DNA from: Sandaracinus amylolyticus
GTDB lineage: Bacteria > Myxococcota_A > Polyangia > Polyangiales > Sandaracinaceae
Reading direction: 5' to 3'
Length of the DNA: 64,000 bases
Assembly (NCBI RefSeq): GCF_000737325.1
Contig: NZ_CP011125.1
Location: 6,696,001 to 6,760,000, forward strand
Shown here: positions 14,354 to 22,535 of the stretch, one piece after another
How the letters are laid out: each line of letters begins with the position of its first letter
Numbering within the stretch: position 1 is the stretch's first letter
Position numbers and translations under genes: made by a program
Notes under the pieces: model-generated
Database searches by the model: none
What the model was told of the DNA's origin: nothing
What the model saw: only the letters and a program-made list of their open reading frames with translations

Positions 14354-14837
14354 GCGTCGTTCATCGAGCGCGCAGTGGTTTCCCTCGGGGACGGAGGTGG
14401 CGCGCCCAGACGCGCCCCACGGCAGCGGCGCTGCTGCTCGCGCAGGTCGCGGAGCAGGCGGCGGTGGCGGCGAAGCACGCAGCAGAGCGCATTCGCCGAC
14501 GACCCCGCGGAACGTGACGCCGCGACGGGGACCGCGTGCCCGTAGGCGACACCGCGCGCTGCCGCCCACGCTTCCGCGATCGGCCGCCCGCGTCCGCTTG
14601 CCTTCCGGTCCCACGTGCGATCGGGGTCGACGGCGGCCGTCGAGCCGTTGCGTGTATACGCGCCCAGCGGAGGAGCGGCATCGCGAGCACGCCGACGCTC
14701 TCGCGGACCGCGGTGGCGTGCACGCCGACCTTCGCCGCGTCGCGCGATCGCTCGTGGCTGCCACGTGCACTTCAGCAGCTTCGATGGCTCGCGGGCGCTC
14801 GCGCGACACGCCTGATCGCGGCTCGCGACCGCGGCGC
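14354..14837. other. Region with only decayed coding fragments
   Basis: About 480 bp between the kinase remnant and the antiporter operon. Minus-strand frames show pieces that read like a GAF-type sensor domain, but they jump frames several times and no intact gene is found. Plus-strand frames look like shadow. No RNA gene or repeat is seen. Confidence 0.5.
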
Positions 14838-14984
14838 TCAGCGCGTGAGCAGCCCCAACAGGATCGCGCACACGAACAGCGCGCCGATGATCACCAGGAA
14901 CCAACCAGCGCCTCCCGGCGCGCTCGGCGGCGCACCATTCGATCCACGCGCGTCGTTCTTCTTCGTCACGTTCTTTCCTCTCAT
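14838..14984 (-). CDS. 48-residue single-pass membrane protein coupled to the antiporter
   Basis: A short gene below the usual length cut-off. It has a basic N-terminus (MRGKNVTKKND), a Gly/Ser/Pro-rich linker, and one strong membrane segment (WFLVIIGALFVCAILLGLL) followed by Thr-Arg. The ATG overlaps the TGA of the Ca2+/Na+ antiporter gene in an ATGA arrangement, strong evidence that it is translated with it. The likely topology is a basic cytosolic N-terminus with the helix anchored in the inner membrane. It may be a small regulatory or stabilising partner of the antiporter; that is inference from position only. Confidence 0.6.
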   Translation of the reverse strand: MRGKNVTKKNDARGSNGAPPSAPGGAGWFLVIIGALFVCAILLGLLTR

Positions 14985-15952
14985 CCGAGCCCCAACCACA
15001 CGAGGTACGCGGCGTACGCCGCGAGCAGCACGGCGCCTTCGCCGCGGCTGATCGTCCGCGCGGTGCGCATCATCACCGCGGTGATCGCGGTCACCGCCGC
15101 GAGCACGAGGAGGTCGGCGCGCACCGACGCGAACGGCGCTCCGACGCGCCCCACAACCGCGGCTGCGCCGAGGCAGAGGAGCACGTTGAACACGTTCGAT
15201 CCGATCACGTTGCCGACCGCGATATCCGAGTGGCCCTTGCGCGCCGCCATCAGCGACGTCGCGAGCTCGGGCAGCGACGTGCCGACCGCGACGATCGTCA
15301 GGCCGACCATCCGCTCGCTCATGCCGATCGTCCGCGCGAGGCTCGCAGCGCCGTCGACGAACACGCTGCCGCCGACCACGAGCGCGACGAGCCCGACGAG
15401 CACCAGCGCGCCGAGCTTCGCGCGCGCGGCGCCGCTCACCGCTTCTGCCGCGTCCGCCGTGACCTGCGCCGCGTCGCTCGCCTCGTGCCCGTCGGCGCGC
15501 GAGGTGCGGATCATCCAGACGGTGTAGCCGAGCGCCGCCGCGAGAAGCGCCGCGCCTTCCCATCGCGACACCTCGCCGTCGAGCAAGAGGAGCGGCAGCG
15601 CGAGCGCGCTCACCACGAGGACGCGGACCTCGCGCCTCGGGAGCGCACCGGCGACGCGAGGCGGCGACACGAGCGCGGTCGCGCCGAGGATCAGCCCGAG
15701 GTTCGCGATGTTCGAGCCGATGACGTTCCCGAGCGCGATCGCGGGTAGCCCGGTGAGCGCCGCCTGAACGCCGACGACGACCTCGGGCGCCGACGTGCCG
15801 TACGCGACGACGGTGAGCCCGACGAGCACGCTGCTGATCCCGAGCGAGCGACCGAGGCGCGCCGCGCCCGCGACCAACCACTCGGCGCCGAAGTAGAGCA
15901 GCGCGAGGCCCGCGACGATGCGGAGCACGTCGACGACGAGCAGCGCCGTCAT
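14981..15952 (-). CDS. CaCA-family calcium/sodium antiporter (YrbG-like)
   Basis: A 323-residue inner-membrane protein with about ten membrane segments in two inverted halves, as in the Ca2+:cation antiporter superfamily. Both alpha-repeat signatures are clear: VAYGTSAPEVVVG with GNVIGSNIAN in the first half, VAVGTSLPELATS with GNVIGSNVFN in the second. The central loop is hydrophilic and Ala/Asp-rich. Family members exchange Ca2+ for Na+ or H+. The ATG at 15952 is preceded by a 65-bp spacer and then a ~143-bp repeated leader element found again upstream of the next minus-strand gene. A 48-residue membrane protein is translationally coupled at its 3' end. Confidence 0.88.
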   Translation of the reverse strand: MTALLVVDVLRIVAGLALLYFGAEWLVAGAARLGRSLGISSVLVGLTVVAYGTSAPEVVVGVQAALTGLPAIALGNVIGSNIANLGLILGATALVSPPRVAGALPRREVRVLVVSALALPLLLLDGEVSRWEGAALLAAALGYTVWMIRTSRADGHEASDAAQVTADAAEAVSGAARAKLGALVLVGLVALVVGGSVFVDGAASLARTIGMSERMVGLTIVAVGTSLPELATSLMAARKGHSDIAVGNVIGSNVFNVLLCLGAAAVVGRVGAPFASVRADLLVLAAVTAITAVMMRTARTISRGEGAVLLAAYAAYLVWLGLG

Positions 15953-16017
15953 GCCGCGCCCTCGAGGTGGGCGTCGGGCGAGTCGAAGCGCGGATCGGGA
16001 ACGAGTCGGGACATGAC

Positions 16018-16160
16018 GCTCCGCGAGCGCGTGGCGCTCGGAGCGGCTGGCGGCCCGACCAGCCGGGAGACCTGCGGTGCTGCGCACCGCACCCGACGGA
16101 GTGTGGACGACGAGGGTCGATACCGAGAACGGTCGGCGGTCGCAATCATTTCGAGCACGC
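16018..16160 (-). ncRNA. Putative structured leader element, copy 1
   Basis: Read on the minus strand, this segment closely resembles 16706-16848, and both end a similar distance (65 and 50 bp) before a minus-strand start codon. Three helices are visible: CTCGG (in GTTCTCGGTATC) can pair with CCGAG near the 3' end; GGTGC pairs with GCACC in a hairpin with a GCA loop core; GGCTGG pairs with CCAGCC around TCGGGCCG. Conserved single-stranded stretches include ATGATTGCG, TTCTCGGTATC and GTCCACA. Single-base indels between the copies argue against coding. I do not recognise a known riboswitch class. A cis-regulatory RNA of the antiporter gene is inferred. Confidence 0.5.
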
Positions 16161-16167
16161 GCCTCGC

Positions 16168-16655
16168 TCAGCAGCCGAGCGCCCCGGGCGACTCGCCGTC
16201 GTCGAGCGCGATCGCGAGCAGCGTCGGGTCGGCCGCGAGCTGCAAGAGCAGTGTGCGCGCGACCTCGGCGCGCAGCGCCTCGGGGGCGCTCGACGCAGCC
16301 CACCGAACGAGCTCGGCGACGCGGCCTCCGCGCGCGGCGAGGTCGAGACCCGCGAGGAGCGACGCGGTGTCGTGCGGCGTCGCGACCACGCAGGCCGCGC
16401 CGACGCGCACGGCGCGCTCGGTGATCGCGAGCGGTCCGCTCACCACGAAGGGCCGCGCCGCCGCGCGCAGCGCGCGCAACGAGACCACGTCGTCGAGCAG
16501 CGACGCGTCGGCCCACACCACGTCGGCGCTCGCGAGCGCGCTCGATGCGAGCTCCACGTCGTAGCGTCGCGCGAGCGCGGCCATCACCGATCCCGCGCGG
16601 TCGCGCGCGAGGACCAGGACACGTCGCTTGCTGCCGGCGATCGTGCCCATCATCG
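16168..16655 (-). CDS. Unrecognised protein with a receiver-like alpha/beta N-half
   Basis: A 162-residue protein starting at the ATG at 16655 (ATG-ATG; 16652 is the alternative). The first 100 residues alternate strands and helices (RVLVLARDRAGSVMAALAR, DVVWADASLL, FVVSGPLA, ACVVATP) in a way that recalls a CheY-like fold, but there is no phospho-acceptor pattern. The C-terminal part is helical (RVAELVRWAASSAPEALRAE). There is no signal peptide or membrane segment. It lies 50 bp downstream (minus strand) of the second copy of the leader element and just upstream of the first, so it is probably co-regulated with the Ca2+/Na+ antiporter. Function unknown. Confidence 0.55.
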
Positions 16656-16705
16656 CGCCGCGACGAGGACGGTCAGGGTGGCTCGGCTCTCGATCCGCAT
16701 GCGCC

Positions 16706-16848
16706 GCTCCTCGAGCGCGTGGCGCTCGGAGCGGCTGGCGGCCCGACCAACCGGGGAGACCTGCGGTGCAGAGGCACCGCACCCGAGAGACTGTGGACGG
16801 AGACTCTTGATACCGAGAACGCTCGCTCCCCGCAATCATCTCGCGCGC
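16706..16848 (-). ncRNA. Putative structured leader element, copy 2
   Basis: This is the second copy of the element at 16018-16160, in the same orientation. The helix GGCTGG/CCAGCC of copy 1 becomes GGTTGG/CCAGCC here, a change that keeps pairing through a G-U. The GGTGC/GCACC hairpin keeps its stem but changes its loop from GCA to a CTCT type. ATGATTGCG, TTCTCGGTATC and GTCCACA are unchanged. It ends 50 bp before the minus-strand start at 16655. It also lies 84 bp before mrpA on the plus strand, so a role there cannot be excluded, but copy 1 has no plus-strand gene after it. Confidence 0.5.
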
Positions 16849-16931
16849 CGGGGTATGCGCTTCGTGTCCTGGCACTTTGGGCGCTGCTCGGCGGACCTAC
16901 ACAGCGAAGGGGCGCTCGCGCGCTCGATCCG

Positions 16932-19178
16932 ATGTCGCGCGCACGCATCGCTCGCGTTCTGCTCGTGCTCGTGCCCGCAGCGCTCGCGGTCGCGCTGGCG
17001 CTCGCCGCGCCCGCGCTGATCGCGGGGCGCACGTTCGCGTGGGTGGTGCCATGGGCGCCCTCGGCCGGGCTCGAGACGGCGCTGCGGCTCGACGCGCTCT
17101 CGGGTCTCTTCGCGCTGATCGTCTGCGCGATCGGCGCGCTCGTCGCGGGCTACGCGGGCGCGTACTTCGACGACGCGCGTGCGCTGCGGCGCTTCGATCG
17201 GCTGCTCGCGCTGTTCACGCTCGCGATGCTCGCGCTCGTGCTCGCGGACGACGTGTTCTTCCTCTACTTCGCGTGGGAGCTCACGAGCGTCGCGTCGTTC
17301 TTCCTGATCGGCTTCGAGCACGAGCGCGCGGAGGCGCGCGACGCGGCGCGGCATGCGCTGCTCGTGACGGTCGCGGGTGGCCTCGCGCTGCTCGCAGGGC
17401 TCGTGATGCTCGCGAGCGCGGCCGGGACCACGCGCATCTCGGAGATCGTCGCGCGCGGTGACGTCGTGCGCGCGCACGAGCTCTACCGGCCGGCGTTCTT
17501 CACGATCGCCGTCGCAGCGTTCACGAAGTCCGCGCAGGTCCCGTTCCATTCGTGGCTGCCCCGAGCGATGGAAGCGCCGACGCCGGCGAGCGCGTACCTG
17601 CACGCCGCGACGATGGTGAAGGCCGGTGTGTTCCTGCTCGCGCGCTTCGCGCCGGCGCTGGGGGGCACGGCGGAGTGGACGTCGCTCGTCGCGACCATCG
17701 GCGGGATCACCGCGCTCGTCGGTGCGGCGCGCGCGATCGGCGAGACGCGCTTCAAGCCCGCCCTCGCCTACTCGACGGTCGCCGCGCTCGGGCTCGTGAC
17801 GCTCCTGCTCGGCATCGGAACGACGTACGCGATCGCCGCCGCGATGCTCTACGTCGTCGCGCACGCGCTCTACAAGGGCGCGCTCTTCCTCTACGCCGGC
17901 GTGGTGCAGCACCAGGCGCACGCGAAGGACGCCGAGGCGGTCGGCGGACTGGCGCGCGTGCTCCCGCACGGCGCGGTCGCCGCGCTGCTCGCGGGCGCGT
18001 CGATGGCAGGCGTGCCTGCGACGCTCGGGTTCCTCGCGAAGGATCTCGCGTACGCGGCGCTGCTCCCGGGAGATGGCGGGTACCGCGTGATCGCGCTCGT
18101 CAGCGCGTTCGTCGCGAGCGCGCTCTTCGTCGCGGTGGCGATGGTCGTCGCGGCCCGGCCGCTGCTCGGCGCGCGCCGCGGGATCTCCGACGACGTCGGC
18201 CGGCCGCGCGCGTGGCTCTGGGGCCCGCCGCTGCTGCTCGCCGCGCTCGGTCTCGTCGCGGGGATCGCGCCGGCGCTCGTCGCCCCGCTGGTCGCCGCTG
18301 CGGCCTCGCTCGTCGCGGCGCGCGCGGTGCCCGCGTCGGCGCTGGCGTTCCACGGCGTCGGCATCGAGCTCGCGCTGAGCGCGGTCACGCTCGTGGTCGG
18401 CGCCGCGGTGTTCGCCGCGCGCGCGCCGCTCCGCCGGGCGGGCGCCGCGCTGTCGCGCGCGCTGCACCTCCGACCCGCGAGCGGCTACGAGGCGGCGATG
18501 CGCGCGCTCGCGCGCGTCGCGAAGGCGCAGACGCGCGTCCTCCAGAACGGGATTCTGCGGCGCTACACGCTCGTGACCCTCGTCGTCATCGCCGTGGTGG
18601 TCGCGACGGGCATCGCGCACGCGCCGCCGCCCGATCTCGCGGGCGCGCTCGACGATCTGCAGCCGCGCCAGCTCGGGCTGGGCGCGTTCATCATCGCCGC
18701 GGCGCTGTTCGCGGTGATCGCGCCGGAGCGCTTCGCCGCCGTCGCCGCGCTCGGCGCGGTCGGCTTCGGCGTCGGCGCGTTGTTCCTCGATCTCGGCGCG
18801 CCCGACCTCGCGATGACGCAGTTCGTCGTGGAGGCCCTCAGCGTCGTCGTGTTCGTGCTCGCGTTCCGCAAGCTGCCGCGACTGCCGCTGCTCTCGAGCC
18901 GCGCGACCCGCGCTCGCGACGCCGTCGTCGCCGTCGGCTTCGGCACCGTCGTCTCGGCGCTCGCGCTCGCAGCGGCGAGGACGAACCCCGATCCGAGCGT
19001 GTCCGCGTGGTTCCTCGAGCAGAGCCTCCCCGCGGCGCACGGGCACAACGTGGTGAACGTCATCCTCACCGACTTCCGGAGCGTCGACACGCTGGGCGAG
19101 ACCATCGTCGTCGCGACCGCGGGCTTCGGCGTCTTCGCGCTCCTGCGCCTCCGCGCGCGCTCGGGAGGGGCACGATGA
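16932..19178 (+). CDS. mrpA: Mrp antiporter subunit A (MrpA/MnhA)
   Basis: A 748-residue polytopic protein, the largest subunit of the multi-subunit Na+(K+)/H+ antiporter related to complex I. The proton-channel core is clear: LYFAWELTSVASFFLIGFEH, FTKSAQVPFHSWLPRAMEAPTPASAYLHAATMV with the conserved Lys, and later HALYKGALFLYAG. The C-terminal part after about residue 560 carries the MrpA extension with FLDLGAPDLAMTQFVVEALSVV and ILTDFRSVDTLGE, the region that joins MrpB-type domains. The ATG at 16932 gives a clean first membrane helix (MSRARIARVLLVLV). It begins a seven-gene operon, mostly joined by stop/start overlaps, and is preceded by the repeated leader element. Confidence 0.92.
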   Translation: MSRARIARVLLVLVPAALAVALALAAPALIAGRTFAWVVPWAPSAGLETALRLDALSGLFALIVCAIGALVAGYAGAYFDDARALRRFDRLLALFTLAMLALVLADDVFFLYFAWELTSVASFFLIGFEHERAEARDAARHALLVTVAGGLALLAGLVMLASAAGTTRISEIVARGDVVRAHELYRPAFFTIAVAAFTKSAQVPFHSWLPRAMEAPTPASAYLHAATMVKAGVFLLARFAPALGGTAEWTSLVATIGGITALVGAARAIGETRFKPALAYSTVAALGLVTLLLGIGTTYAIAAAMLYVVAHALYKGALFLYAGVVQHQAHAKDAEAVGGLARVLPHGAVAALLAGASMAGVPATLGFLAKDLAYAALLPGDGGYRVIALVSAFVASALFVAVAMVVAARPLLGARRGISDDVGRPRAWLWGPPLLLAALGLVAGIAPALVAPLVAAAASLVAARAVPASALAFHGVGIELALSAVTLVVGAAVFAARAPLRRAGAALSRALHLRPASGYEAAMRALARVAKAQTRVLQNGILRRYTLVTLVVIAVVVATGIAHAPPPDLAGALDDLQPRQLGLGAFIIAAALFAVIAPERFAAVAALGAVGFGVGALFLDLGAPDLAMTQFVVEALSVVVFVLAFRKLPRLPLLSSRATRARDAVVAVGFGTVVSALALAAARTNPDPSVSAWFLEQSLPAAHGHNVVNVILTDFRSVDTLGETIVVATAGFGVFALLRLRARSGGAR

Positions 19179-19594
19179 TCACGCGGTCGATCATCTTGCA
19201 GGCATCGACGCGCGTGCTGCAGCCGGTGATCCTCTTCTTCTCGCTCGTGGTGCTCGTGCGCGGGCACGACGAACCGGGCGGCGGCTTCGTCGGAGGCCTC
19301 GCGGCCGCGGCGGGCCTCGTCCTGCACGCCATCGCGTACGGCTACGACTCGGCACGTCGCGCCCTTCGCATCGACACGCGCGCGATCGCCGCGCTGGGGC
19401 TCGCGATCGTGATCATCGCGGCGTTCGCGCCGCTCGTCTTCGGCGATCCGCTGCTTCGCGCCGAATGGGCGACGGTGCCGCTCGGCGAGCTCGGCGAGAT
19501 CTCGCTCGGCACACCGCTCTTCTTCGACGCCGGGGTCTATCTCGTCGTGTACGGCAGCGCGCTGACCATCGTCTTCTCGCTGGGGCGTGAGTGA
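19175..19594 (+). CDS. mrpB: Mrp antiporter subunit B
   Basis: A 139-residue membrane protein with four hydrophobic segments and the hallmark [16 protein letters not shown] (variant of the G-x-N-x-P-G-G-G-F motif). The rest (IITRS start, [22 protein letters not shown]) matches the MrpB/MnhB family. The ATG overlaps the mrpA stop by 4 bp (ATGA), indicating coupling. It is part of the membrane arm of the antiporter. The Asn usual in the motif is Asp here. Confidence 0.9.
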
Positions 19595-19941
19595 TGCACG
19601 TACTGCTCGCGGTCGTCGTCGGAGCGCTCTACGCAGCGGGCATCTACATGATGCTCCGCCGCAGCATGGTGAAGCTCCTGATCGGGCTCTCGCTGCTCGG
19701 TCATGCCGCGAACCTCCTGCTCTTCACCGCCGCGAGCCCGCAGCACGGTCCACCGCCGATCGTCCCGCAGGGCGCGGACGCGCCGCCCGCGGGCGTCGCC
19801 GATCCGCTGCCGCAGGCGCTCGTGCTCACGGCGATCGTGATCGGCTTCGGCGTCGTCGCGTTCGCGATCGCGCTGGTCCACCGCGCACACCAGACGCTCG
19901 GCACCGACGATCCCGATCGGCTGCGGAGCACCGACCGATGA
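19594..19941 (+). CDS. mrpC: Mrp antiporter subunit C
   Basis: A 115-residue membrane protein related to NuoK of complex I. Three membrane segments are seen: [35 protein letters not shown] and [20 protein letters not shown]. The conserved segment [15 protein letters not shown], typical of MrpC, lies before the third helix. The ATG at 19594 shares one base with the mrpB stop (TGATG); a GTG at 19591 is possible. The C-terminal tail is hydrophilic and runs into the mrpD start. Confidence 0.9.
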
Positions 19942-21446
19942 GCGCGATCGTCGCGCTGCCGCTCGTGTGGCCGCTCTGCGCCGCGGTCGGCGCGTTCCTC
20001 GCGTTCCGCACGCCGAGGGCGCAGGAGGTGATCTCGATCACCGCCTCGGTCGCGCTCGTCGTCACGTCGTTCGTGCTGCTCGCGCACGTTCGCGCCGAAG
20101 GGCTCCTCGTCACGCAGGTCGGCTCGTGGCCCGCGCCGTACGGCGTGTCGCTCGTCGCGGATCGGCTCTCCGCCACGATGGTGTGCATCACGTCCGTGCT
20201 CGGCCTCGCCGTCGCGATCTACTCGATCGACGGGGTCTCGCGCCGTCGTCGCGCGTTCGGATTCCACCCGCTGCTGCAGCTCGTGCTCGCTGGCGTGTGC
20301 GGCGCCTTCCTCACCGGCGATCTGTTCAACCTGTTCGTGTGGATCGAGGTCCAGCTGATCGCGTCGTTCGTCCTGCTCGCGCTCGGCGGAGAGCGCGCGC
20401 AGCTCGAGGGCGCCATCAAGTACGTGACGCTGAACCTCGTCTCGTCCGCGCTGATGCTCGCCGCGATCGGGCTCCTCTACGGGCTCTGCGGCACGCTGAA
20501 TTTCGCGGACATGGCGGTGCGCCTCGAGCGCGCGAGCCCGAGCGGCGCGATCGGCGCCGCCGCCCTGCTGCTCTTCGCGGCGTTCGGGATCAAGGCCGCG
20601 ATCTTCCCGTTCTTCTTCTGGCTGCCGGCCAGCTACCACACGCCGCCCGCGGCGGTGTCCGCGCTCTTCTCGGGGCTGCTGACGAAGGTCGGCGTGTACG
20701 CGATGGCGCGCGTGTTCGTCGGCGTCTACGGAGGAGAGCTCGCCGTGCTGCGCGACGTCCTCTTCGTCGTCGCCGCGCTCACGATGGTCACCGGCGTGCT
20801 CGGCGCGGCGGCGCAGAACGACGTGCGGCGGATCTTGTCGTTCCACGTGGTCAGTCAGATTGGCTACATGGTCATGGGCATCGCGCTGGGCACCGTGCTC
20901 GGGGTCGGCGGTGCCATCTACTTCGTGCTCCACAACATCGCGGCGAAGTCCGCGCTGTTCCTCGTCGCCGGCGTGATCGAGCGCGAGCAGGGCACGGGCG
21001 ATCTGTCGCGGCTCGGCGGGCTCGCGCGCACGCGCCCCGGCCTCGCGATGCTCTTCCTGGTGCCGGCGCTCTCGCTCGCAGGCATCCCGCCTCTCGCCGG
21101 GTTCGTCGGCAAGCTCCTCCTCGTGCGCGCGGGGCTCGACGCGCGCGCGTGGCTGCTCGTCGCGACCGCGCTCGTCGTCAGCCTGCTCACGCTCTACTCG
21201 ATGGCGAAGATCTGGATCGGCGCCTTCTGGTCACCCGCGCCGGAGACGCCCGTCGTCGCGAGCCCGCGCCGCGCTCCGGTCACGATGCACCTCGGCGTCG
21301 TCGGGATGGTGCTCGTGACGATCTTGCTCAGCGTGCTCGCGGAGCCCGCGGTCGCGCTCAGCCTCGGCGGGGCCGAGCAGCTCCTCGATCGCGGTTCGTT
21401 CGTCGACGCGGTGCTCGCGACGACCGCGGAGGTGCCCTCGCCGTGA
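19938..21446 (+). CDS. mrpD: Mrp antiporter subunit D
   Basis: A 502-residue polytopic subunit related to NuoN/NuoM, one of the two ion-translocating channels of the Mrp complex. Motifs seen: [21 protein letters not shown] (with the conserved Glu), [36 protein letters not shown] (with conserved Lys residues) and [14 protein letters not shown] followed by [18 protein letters not shown]. The ATG at 19938 overlaps the mrpC stop by 4 bp. About fourteen membrane helices are apparent. The C-terminal 60 residues carry one more helix and a hydrophilic tail. Confidence 0.92.
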
Positions 21447-21916
21447 CGTCGTTCGTCCACAACATGCTGTTCGCGATCCTCTGGGCGACGATCGTCGGCG
21501 AGGTCACGGGCCTGAACCTGCTCTTCGGGTTCGCGCTCGGATACCTCGCGCTGCGCATCCCGCCCGGTCGCGCCGCGCGCGCGCGGTACTTCGAGAAGTT
21601 CCGTCAGCTGCTCGACTTCACCGTCTTCTTCGTGCGCGAGGCCACCCTCTCGGCGCTGCGCGTCGCCTACGACGTCGTGACCCCGACGCACCACACACGC
21701 CCCGCGGTGCTCGCGGTCCCGCTCGACACGCGCACCGACACCGAGGTCGCCGTGCTCGCGAACCTGATCTCGCTCACGCCCGGCAGCCTCTCGCTCGAGG
21801 CCACGCCCGATCGCAGCACGCTCTACGTCCACTTCATGTTCGTCGACGATCCCGACGAGACGATCGCGCAGGTGAAGCGCGACTTCGAGCGGCGCGTGCT
21901 GGAGCTGCTGCGATGA
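21443..21916 (+). CDS. mrpE: Mrp antiporter subunit E
   Basis: A 157-residue membrane protein. Two N-terminal hydrophobic segments are followed by the MrpE signature region: FFVREATLSALRVAYDVVTP, then NLISLTPGSLSLEATPDRS, where the TPG turn is highly conserved, and LYVHFMFVDDP. The GTG at 21443 overlaps the mrpD stop (GTGA), so translation is coupled. It supports assembly and full transport activity of the antiporter in characterised homologues. Confidence 0.9.
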   Translation: MTSFVHNMLFAILWATIVGEVTGLNLLFGFALGYLALRIPPGRAARARYFEKFRQLLDFTVFFVREATLSALRVAYDVVTPTHHTRPAVLAVPLDTRTDTEVAVLANLISLTPGSLSLEATPDRSTLYVHFMFVDDPDETIAQVKRDFERRVLELLR

Positions 21917-22203
21917 CGTTCGACGTGACCGATCCGCTCCCGTTCGTCGTGAAGGTCGCGACGGCGATGCTCGTCGCGAGCTTCTTCGTGTGCCTCTTCC
22001 GGCTCGCGCGCGGACCGAGCCTCGCGGACCGCGTGGTCGCGCTCGACCTGACGACCTACGTGGCCGTCGCGTACTGCGGCGTGCGCGCGCTCGCCGAGCG
22101 TGACGTGCACACGCTTCGGCCCGCGCTCGTCGCGGCGCTGCTCGCGTTCCTCGGCACGGTCGCGTTCGCGCGATTCCTCGAGCGAAAGGCGGTCGACGGA
22201 TGA
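21913..22203 (+). CDS. mrpF: Mrp antiporter subunit F
   Basis: A 96-residue membrane protein with three hydrophobic segments. The MrpF signature LFRLARGPSLADRVVALDL, with the Arg-Gly-Pro and Asp-Arg pairs, is clear. It resembles bile-acid-efflux-type MrpF subunits. The ATG overlaps the mrpE stop by 4 bp and its stop overlaps mrpG by 4 bp. Confidence 0.9.
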   Translation: MTFDVTDPLPFVVKVATAMLVASFFVCLFRLARGPSLADRVVALDLTTYVAVAYCGVRALAERDVHTLRPALVAALLAFLGTVAFARFLERKAVDG

Positions 22204-22535
22204 TCGTGAGCTGGATCGCGTCGGTGCTCCTCCTGGTCGGCGGGGCGTTCGTGCTGATCGCGTCGATCGGAGTCGCGCGCCTGCCCGACCTCTACACGCG
22301 GATGCAGGCCGCGACGAAGGGCGGCGCGGTCGGGCTCGCGTTCCTGATGGGAGCGGTCGCGCTCGCGCTGCAGCGCGCGGAGGCGACGGTCCTCGTCGCG
22401 CTGCTCATCGCGTTCGTGATGCTCACCGCGCCGGTGGCCGCGCACGCGATCGGCCGCGCCGGGTACCTCAACGGCGTGCCGCTCTGGGAGGGAACGCGGC
22501 GCGACGATCTTCGCCGCGCGCGCGAGCGCTCCTGA
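22200..22535 (+). CDS. mrpG: Mrp antiporter subunit G
   Basis: A 111-residue membrane protein and last gene of the Mrp operon. Three hydrophobic segments and the family core IGVARLPDLYTRMQAATKGG are evident, followed by ALLIAFVMLTAPVAAHAIGRAGY, which matches MrpG/MnhG. It overlaps mrpF by 4 bp. It ends only 8 bp from the stop of the convergent radical-SAM gene, and no strong terminator hairpin was found in that gap. Confidence 0.9.
   Translation: MIVSWIASVLLLVGGAFVLIASIGVARLPDLYTRMQAATKGGAVGLAFLMGAVALALQRAEATVLVALLIAFVMLTAPVAAHAIGRAGYLNGVPLWEGTRRDDLRRARERS

Follow-up and report, generated by a model that had tools for sequence, protein, structure and literature searches.

Gene organization and the repeat

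The window analysed in this paper is a stretch of 64,000 nucleotides of the Sandaracinus amylolyticus genome (contig NZ_CP011125.1, positions 6,696,001 to 6,760,000), and all coordinates are counted from its first letter. The genes under study are the following:

14838..14972, minus strand: gene of a small membrane protein (tm) downstream of caxA, 83% identical to a 42-aa protein of the sister species
14981..15952, minus strand: caxA, Na+/Ca2+ exchanger family protein of 323 aa (Pfam PF01699 Na_Ca_ex, E 5e-63)
16168..16653, minus strand: unk, an orphan gene of the genus, 161 aa

Strong matches to unk were found only in genomes G000 and G002, the latter being the sister species; matches outside the genus were weak (E near 1e-3) and, at the one locus inspected, unconvincing. 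No Pfam family matched the protein. Its N-terminal part resembles a response-regulator receiver domain in a two-sequence profile (best E 1.3e-4), with the usual receiver lysine apparently replaced as read by eye (VATPHD, GVPYEL), and the AlphaFold model made without an alignment has a mean pLDDT of 47. The window also holds a divergent mrp operon without an aptamer of its own.

Upstream of caxA and unk lie two copies of a repeat, at 16018-16160 and 16706-16848 respectively. Read on the minus strand, the copies are identical in 120 of 145 alignment columns. They reach a local alignment score of 184, whereas about 2,000 random pairs of 143-mers drawn from the window average 33 and score 70 at most. 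The same-orientation repeat of about 143 bp claimed in an earlier note on this DNA is therefore real. Its description of the differences between the copies also holds: most indels lie in the P1 loop or in the linker between helices P1 and P2, and a C-to-U change (GGCUGG to GGUUGG, against CCAGCC) keeps the P2 pairing. As to the start codons, the distance of 65 nt to caxA (ATG at 15952) is correct; that to unk (ATG at 16653) is 52 nt, not 50. Two nearer ATGs, 3 nt and 5 nt past the repeats (16014 and 16700) and opening short ORFs, had been overlooked.

Assignment to the nhaA-I class

Both copies match the Rfam family nhaA-I (RF03057), also named Li+-I, over model positions 1-55 of 55, and both exceed its curated covariance-model cut-off of 37 bits:

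16045..16094, minus strand: copy 1 nhaA-I (Li+-I) aptamer with P1 and P2, 54.3 bits
16733..16784, minus strand: copy 2 nhaA-I (Li+-I) aptamer, 50.5 bits

There is hardly any room for doubt that both belong to this class. The repeat is a known riboswitch class and not a new one; the earlier note, which proposed a search against Rfam, had assigned it to no known class and was mistaken in this. Naming the element means that no new ion-sensor class is to be claimed. The aptamer takes up no more than about 50 nt of each 143-bp copy, and the unit most likely consists of a promoter, the aptamer and a hairpin hiding a Shine-Dalgarno (SD) sequence.

The whole genome (10,327,335 bases, one contig) contains three nhaA-I matches, two in the window and a third before nhaA (Pfam Na_H_antiport_1). 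As for the genes that follow, caxA with its Na_Ca_ex domain stands after copy 1, nhaA after the third copy, and the non-transporter unk after copy 2. In the order, 45 of 184 genomes carry a match above the cut-off, and most class members directly precede the start of nhaA itself.

The class was validated as the Li+-I riboswitch by White et al. 2022 (PMC9646797), with Li+ as ligand, an ON direction and a mechanism presumed to act at the ribosome binding site; other class members are known to bind Li+ selectively and to raise expression in response to it (PMC9646797). By membership in this class, the ligand of the window aptamers is expected to be Li+, perhaps Na+, rather than Ca2+ or Mn2+.

Conservation of P1 and P2

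Covariation was examined in 35 leaders, comprising the two window copies, the loci of the order search, and L065, L100, L140 and L147. In these leaders 97.5% of the P1/P2 cells are paired. Double-changed cells number 44, where shuffles give 12.3 and none of 500 reaches the observed value; the covariation score is 0.275 as against 0.108 in shuffles, both comparisons being uncorrected for relatedness of the leaders. Slid versions of the pairing score far lower. P1 and P2 are conserved with compensatory change, which is the outcome of the covariation check that the earlier note had called for.

The 5' third of the repeat finds no support as an RNA helix: RNAalifold gives P1 and P2 only in the aligned leaders, and promoter-like boxes lie in this region. 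The note's proposal of an ion-sensing cis-regulatory RNA beside cation antiporters is borne out by covariation and by homologues before antiporter genes, except that the class was already known. The first interpretation as a whole is partly supported.

The promoter-like 5' region

16117..16145, minus strand: copy 1 promoter-like boxes TTGCGA (16145-16140) and TATCGA (16122-16117), 17 nt apart
16807..16835, minus strand: copy 2 promoter-like boxes TTGCGG (16835-16830) and TATCAA (16812-16807), 17 nt apart

Boxes of the form TTGCG[A/G], 17 nt, TATC[A/G]A end 22 nt before the aptamer in copy 1, in copy 2 and in the sister species, and the nhaA aptamers have TTGC and TA boxes with the same 17-nt spacing 24 nt upstream. 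A strict promoter consensus scan lists no promoter at these boxes, so it is by inference that the 5' third is regarded as probably promoter DNA.

On the other side of copy 2, the spacer towards the divergent mrp operon (16848-16926) is conserved in the sister species (e.g. GCGCTTCGTGTCCTGGCACTTTGGGC). This conservation suggests an mrp promoter or a regulator site.

The Shine-Dalgarno hairpin P3

16018..16044, minus strand: copy 1 hairpin P3, right arm 16030-16018 with the likely Shine-Dalgarno GGAG
16706..16732, minus strand: copy 2 hairpin P3, right arm 16718-16706 with the likely Shine-Dalgarno GAGGAG

In both copies and in most relatives, a hairpin containing an SD directly follows P2. In the window this hairpin, P3, reads GCTCCGAGCGC...GCGCTCG[C/A]GGAGC; it begins in the P2 3' strand and carries the likely SD in its right arm, with an ATG 3 or 5 nt later. 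P3 differs between leaders in the length of its arms and loop, for which reason RNAalifold does not recover it from the MAFFT alignment; it was instead tested against shuffles in each leader individually. Of the 35 leaders, 27 have P2-end bases paired into the hairpin downstream, where shuffles keeping those bases give 16.3, and 24 have an SD motif paired with the P2-end/arm stretch, where 7.1 are expected; relatedness of the leaders is uncorrected in both counts. There is therefore competition between P2 and the base of P3 for shared bases.

A terminator-type platform was also sought, and no terminator-like site was found in 15900-17000. In Desulfobacterota leaders the 3' strand of P2 serves as left arm in an intrinsic terminator, a use that points to the same logic as in the SD hairpin.

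From these relationships a switch can be proposed. In the unbound state, the SD would be held in P3 with the help of the last P2 3'-strand bases and those that follow them; the ion, most likely Li+, would stabilise P2, withdraw the shared bases and open translation of the short upstream ORF (uORF) that follows. The P3 of Sandaracinus is very stable, at about -20 kcal/mol, and the predicted fold of copy 1 accommodates P2 and P3 together, so that stabilisation of P2 may not open P3. The lever may act kinetically, or more weakly than this scheme suggests. For the class, a testable idea is offered: the P2 3' strand is common to the SD hairpin, as it is to the terminator in related leaders.

Upstream ORFs and their probable coupling to caxA and unk

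15949..16014, minus strand: uORF1, MSRLVPDPRFDSPDAHLEGAA, 21 codons, its TGA overlapping the caxA ATG
16650..16700, minus strand: uORF2, MRIESRATLTVLVAAR, 16 codons, its TGA overlapping the unk ATG

The same arrangement, a short ORF with its SD in the riboswitch hairpin and its stop overlapping the gene start, is present in both copies and in the sister species, where a uORF of 14 codons ends with its TGA across the caxA ATG. All three non-nhaA leaders of the genus thus show the ATGA overlap, with uORF lengths that differ and a frame that is kept. Among 141 distinct aptamers, 7 are followed by an SD-preceded short ORF ending at the start of a long ORF, compared with 0.8% of control positions; three of the 7 are those of this genus, and some of the others (e.g. 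L099) may be spurious. Outside Sandaracinus, L155 has a 32-codon uORF downstream of its aptamer, and the end of this uORF overlaps an NhaA gene start in an ATGA.

A possible SD belonging to caxA itself, GAGGG, lies inside uORF1 of copy 1, and neither the unk ATG nor the caxA ATG of the sister species has a visible SD upstream. The overlap of short uORFs with the gene starts suggests that the switch probably controls caxA and unk by termination-reinitiation: ribosomes stopping at the ATGA would reinitiate on caxA in copy 1 or on unk in copy 2. In this manner caxA and unk would be switched on together with nhaA elsewhere in the genome. At ppe2 of Mycobacterium tuberculosis, a riboswitch-controlled translated leader followed by reinitiation at an AUGA has been shown (PMC11260477).

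Origin of the two copies

The genome of the sister species has one riboswitch (RS) before caxA, the small membrane protein gene and unk, giving the order RS-caxA-tm-unk, as compared with RS-unk-RS-caxA-tm in the window, where no unk follows the small membrane protein gene. In a blastn comparison the one leader of the sister matches each of the two window copies, at 92% within window 16705-22454 on the side of copy 2 and mrp, and at 81% within window 14837-16156, which holds copy 1, caxA and the small protein. Duplication of an operon is the probable source of the second copy, and the simplest route would be a tandem duplication of the RS-caxA-tm-unk operon with subsequent complementary gene loss. 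In addition, the nhaA and caxA leaders have a common stretch from the aptamer to ATGTC[C/T]CGA, suggesting that a cassette including the start codon was copied between nhaA and caxA, in either direction.

Other loci of the class

A caxA-like gene is found downstream of riboswitch-led nhaA in L065 (Archangiaceae) and L114 (Polyangiaceae), so the link between caxA and the riboswitch is not confined to this genus. By Pfam, mrpA-like genes come directly after the riboswitch in several genomes (L014, L039, L154).

A small membrane protein of about 90-155 aa recurs as the first gene after nhaA-I aptamers in several phyla (L045, L105, L020, L043, L069, L079, L123, L129, L141), with motifs seen by eye such as RLFWMVFGN... 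and ...RYLDI...GLTA; the two members scanned had no Pfam match. In L105 (positions 778-1400; Thermodesulfobacteriota) two nhaA-I aptamers about 510 nt apart each precede a copy of this gene, in the order riboswitch-gene-riboswitch-gene. The aptamers of L148, 242 nt apart, are in tandem within one leader, before a gene that is NhaD-like by sequence. The Desulfobacterota loci L176-L203 have intrinsic terminators with the nhaA-I P2 3' strand as left arm. In their P2 loop, U is changed to C in three leaders, all with terminators, and U is retained in eight leaders with terminators. Genome contigs were scanned with a pattern that required U in the P2 loop; the matches listed are a lower bound and do not represent class-wide frequencies.

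Discussion

The first question is whether the repeat has a regulatory role at all. Two near-identical copies close together in one orientation might be taken for a dispersed repeat, a possibility that the earlier note had itself raised. The chance of this is negligible: in 10.3 Mb there are only three nhaA-I matches, standing before unk, caxA and nhaA, the conserved 5' box has exactly two perfect occurrences, and the structure covaries between genomes. A dispersed repeat or mobile element was rejected, as the only three genomic copies all precede genes. It is also improbable that the aptamers have drifted to Na+, or to both ions, and serve Na+ homeostasis beside caxA and mrp. The neighbouring genes are indeed Na+ antiporters, and Na+-responsive variants of nhaA-I, termed Na+-II, are known as rare members from Deltaproteobacteria in the old sense (PMC9646797). 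However, these variants have an intrinsic terminator and a C replacing a conserved U, at position 54 of the D. propionicus RNA (PMC9646797), whereas both window copies have U in the P2 loop (GGUCGGG), at what may be the equivalent position. The C found at the P2-loop U site in Desulfobacterota occurs only with terminators (3 of 3), and the window copies have none.

The more substantial rival accepts ordinary Li+-I riboswitches and regards the uORFs as incidental, with caxA and unk initiated directly at their own starts. It fits the usual position of the class directly before the nhaA start, the possible SD before the caxA ATG of copy 1, and the chance ATGA overlaps at 0.8% of control positions. 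Yet each of the three non-nhaA leaders in the genus has the overlap, with the frame kept in spite of differing uORF lengths, the unk ATG and the sister's caxA ATG have no visible SD, and the SD hidden in the hairpin belongs to the uORF. Direct initiation is considered rather unlikely. The complete chain of promoter, Li+-I aptamer, SD hairpin, uORF reinitiation and origin by duplication is slightly favoured, with the rarity of coupling in the class (7 of 141, three being this genus) counting against it. More tentative, and just short of being favoured, is the reading in which Li+-I gates the uORF and, by reinitiation, caxA or unk, on a cassette copied between nhaA and other operons in the genus.

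With these results, the likely lithium response of the genus would come to include a gene of the Na+/Ca2+ exchanger family and an orphan gene; if the coupling is true, Na+/Ca2+ exchange and a possible signalling protein become part of the lithium response. The searchable literature, which includes few subscription journals, yielded no account of a lithium riboswitch coupled to a uORF. Within that literature, the class is known and its setting before caxA and unk, together with the uORF coupling, appears new but modest.

Comparison with known systems indicates where the locus is typical. Like nhaA-I/Li+-I riboswitches in general, the window copies have a full-length aptamer, conserved P1, P2 and loop, and a hairpin over the ribosome binding site; they are placed before cation antiporter genes, the third copy before nhaA. 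Unlike typical members, their first genes are caxA and the orphan unk instead of nhaA, and the start codon that would be controlled is, as read from the sequence, that of a short uORF. With Na+-II they share the aptamer architecture and a P2 3' strand common to the expression platform, but they lack its intrinsic terminators and have U at what may be the site of its C. The ppe2 B12 riboswitch (PMC11260477) likewise controls a short ORF whose stop overlaps the gene start; it differs in its B12 aptamer and ligand and in being an OFF switch (PMC11260477), and reinitiation, shown at ppe2 (PMC11260477), is inferred for the window copies. Tandem Li+-I copies are known from environmental sequences (PMC9646797) and similarly bring two aptamers close together on one strand. 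In contrast to such leaders with two aptamers, a gene lies between the window aptamers, so that each copy would serve its own gene.
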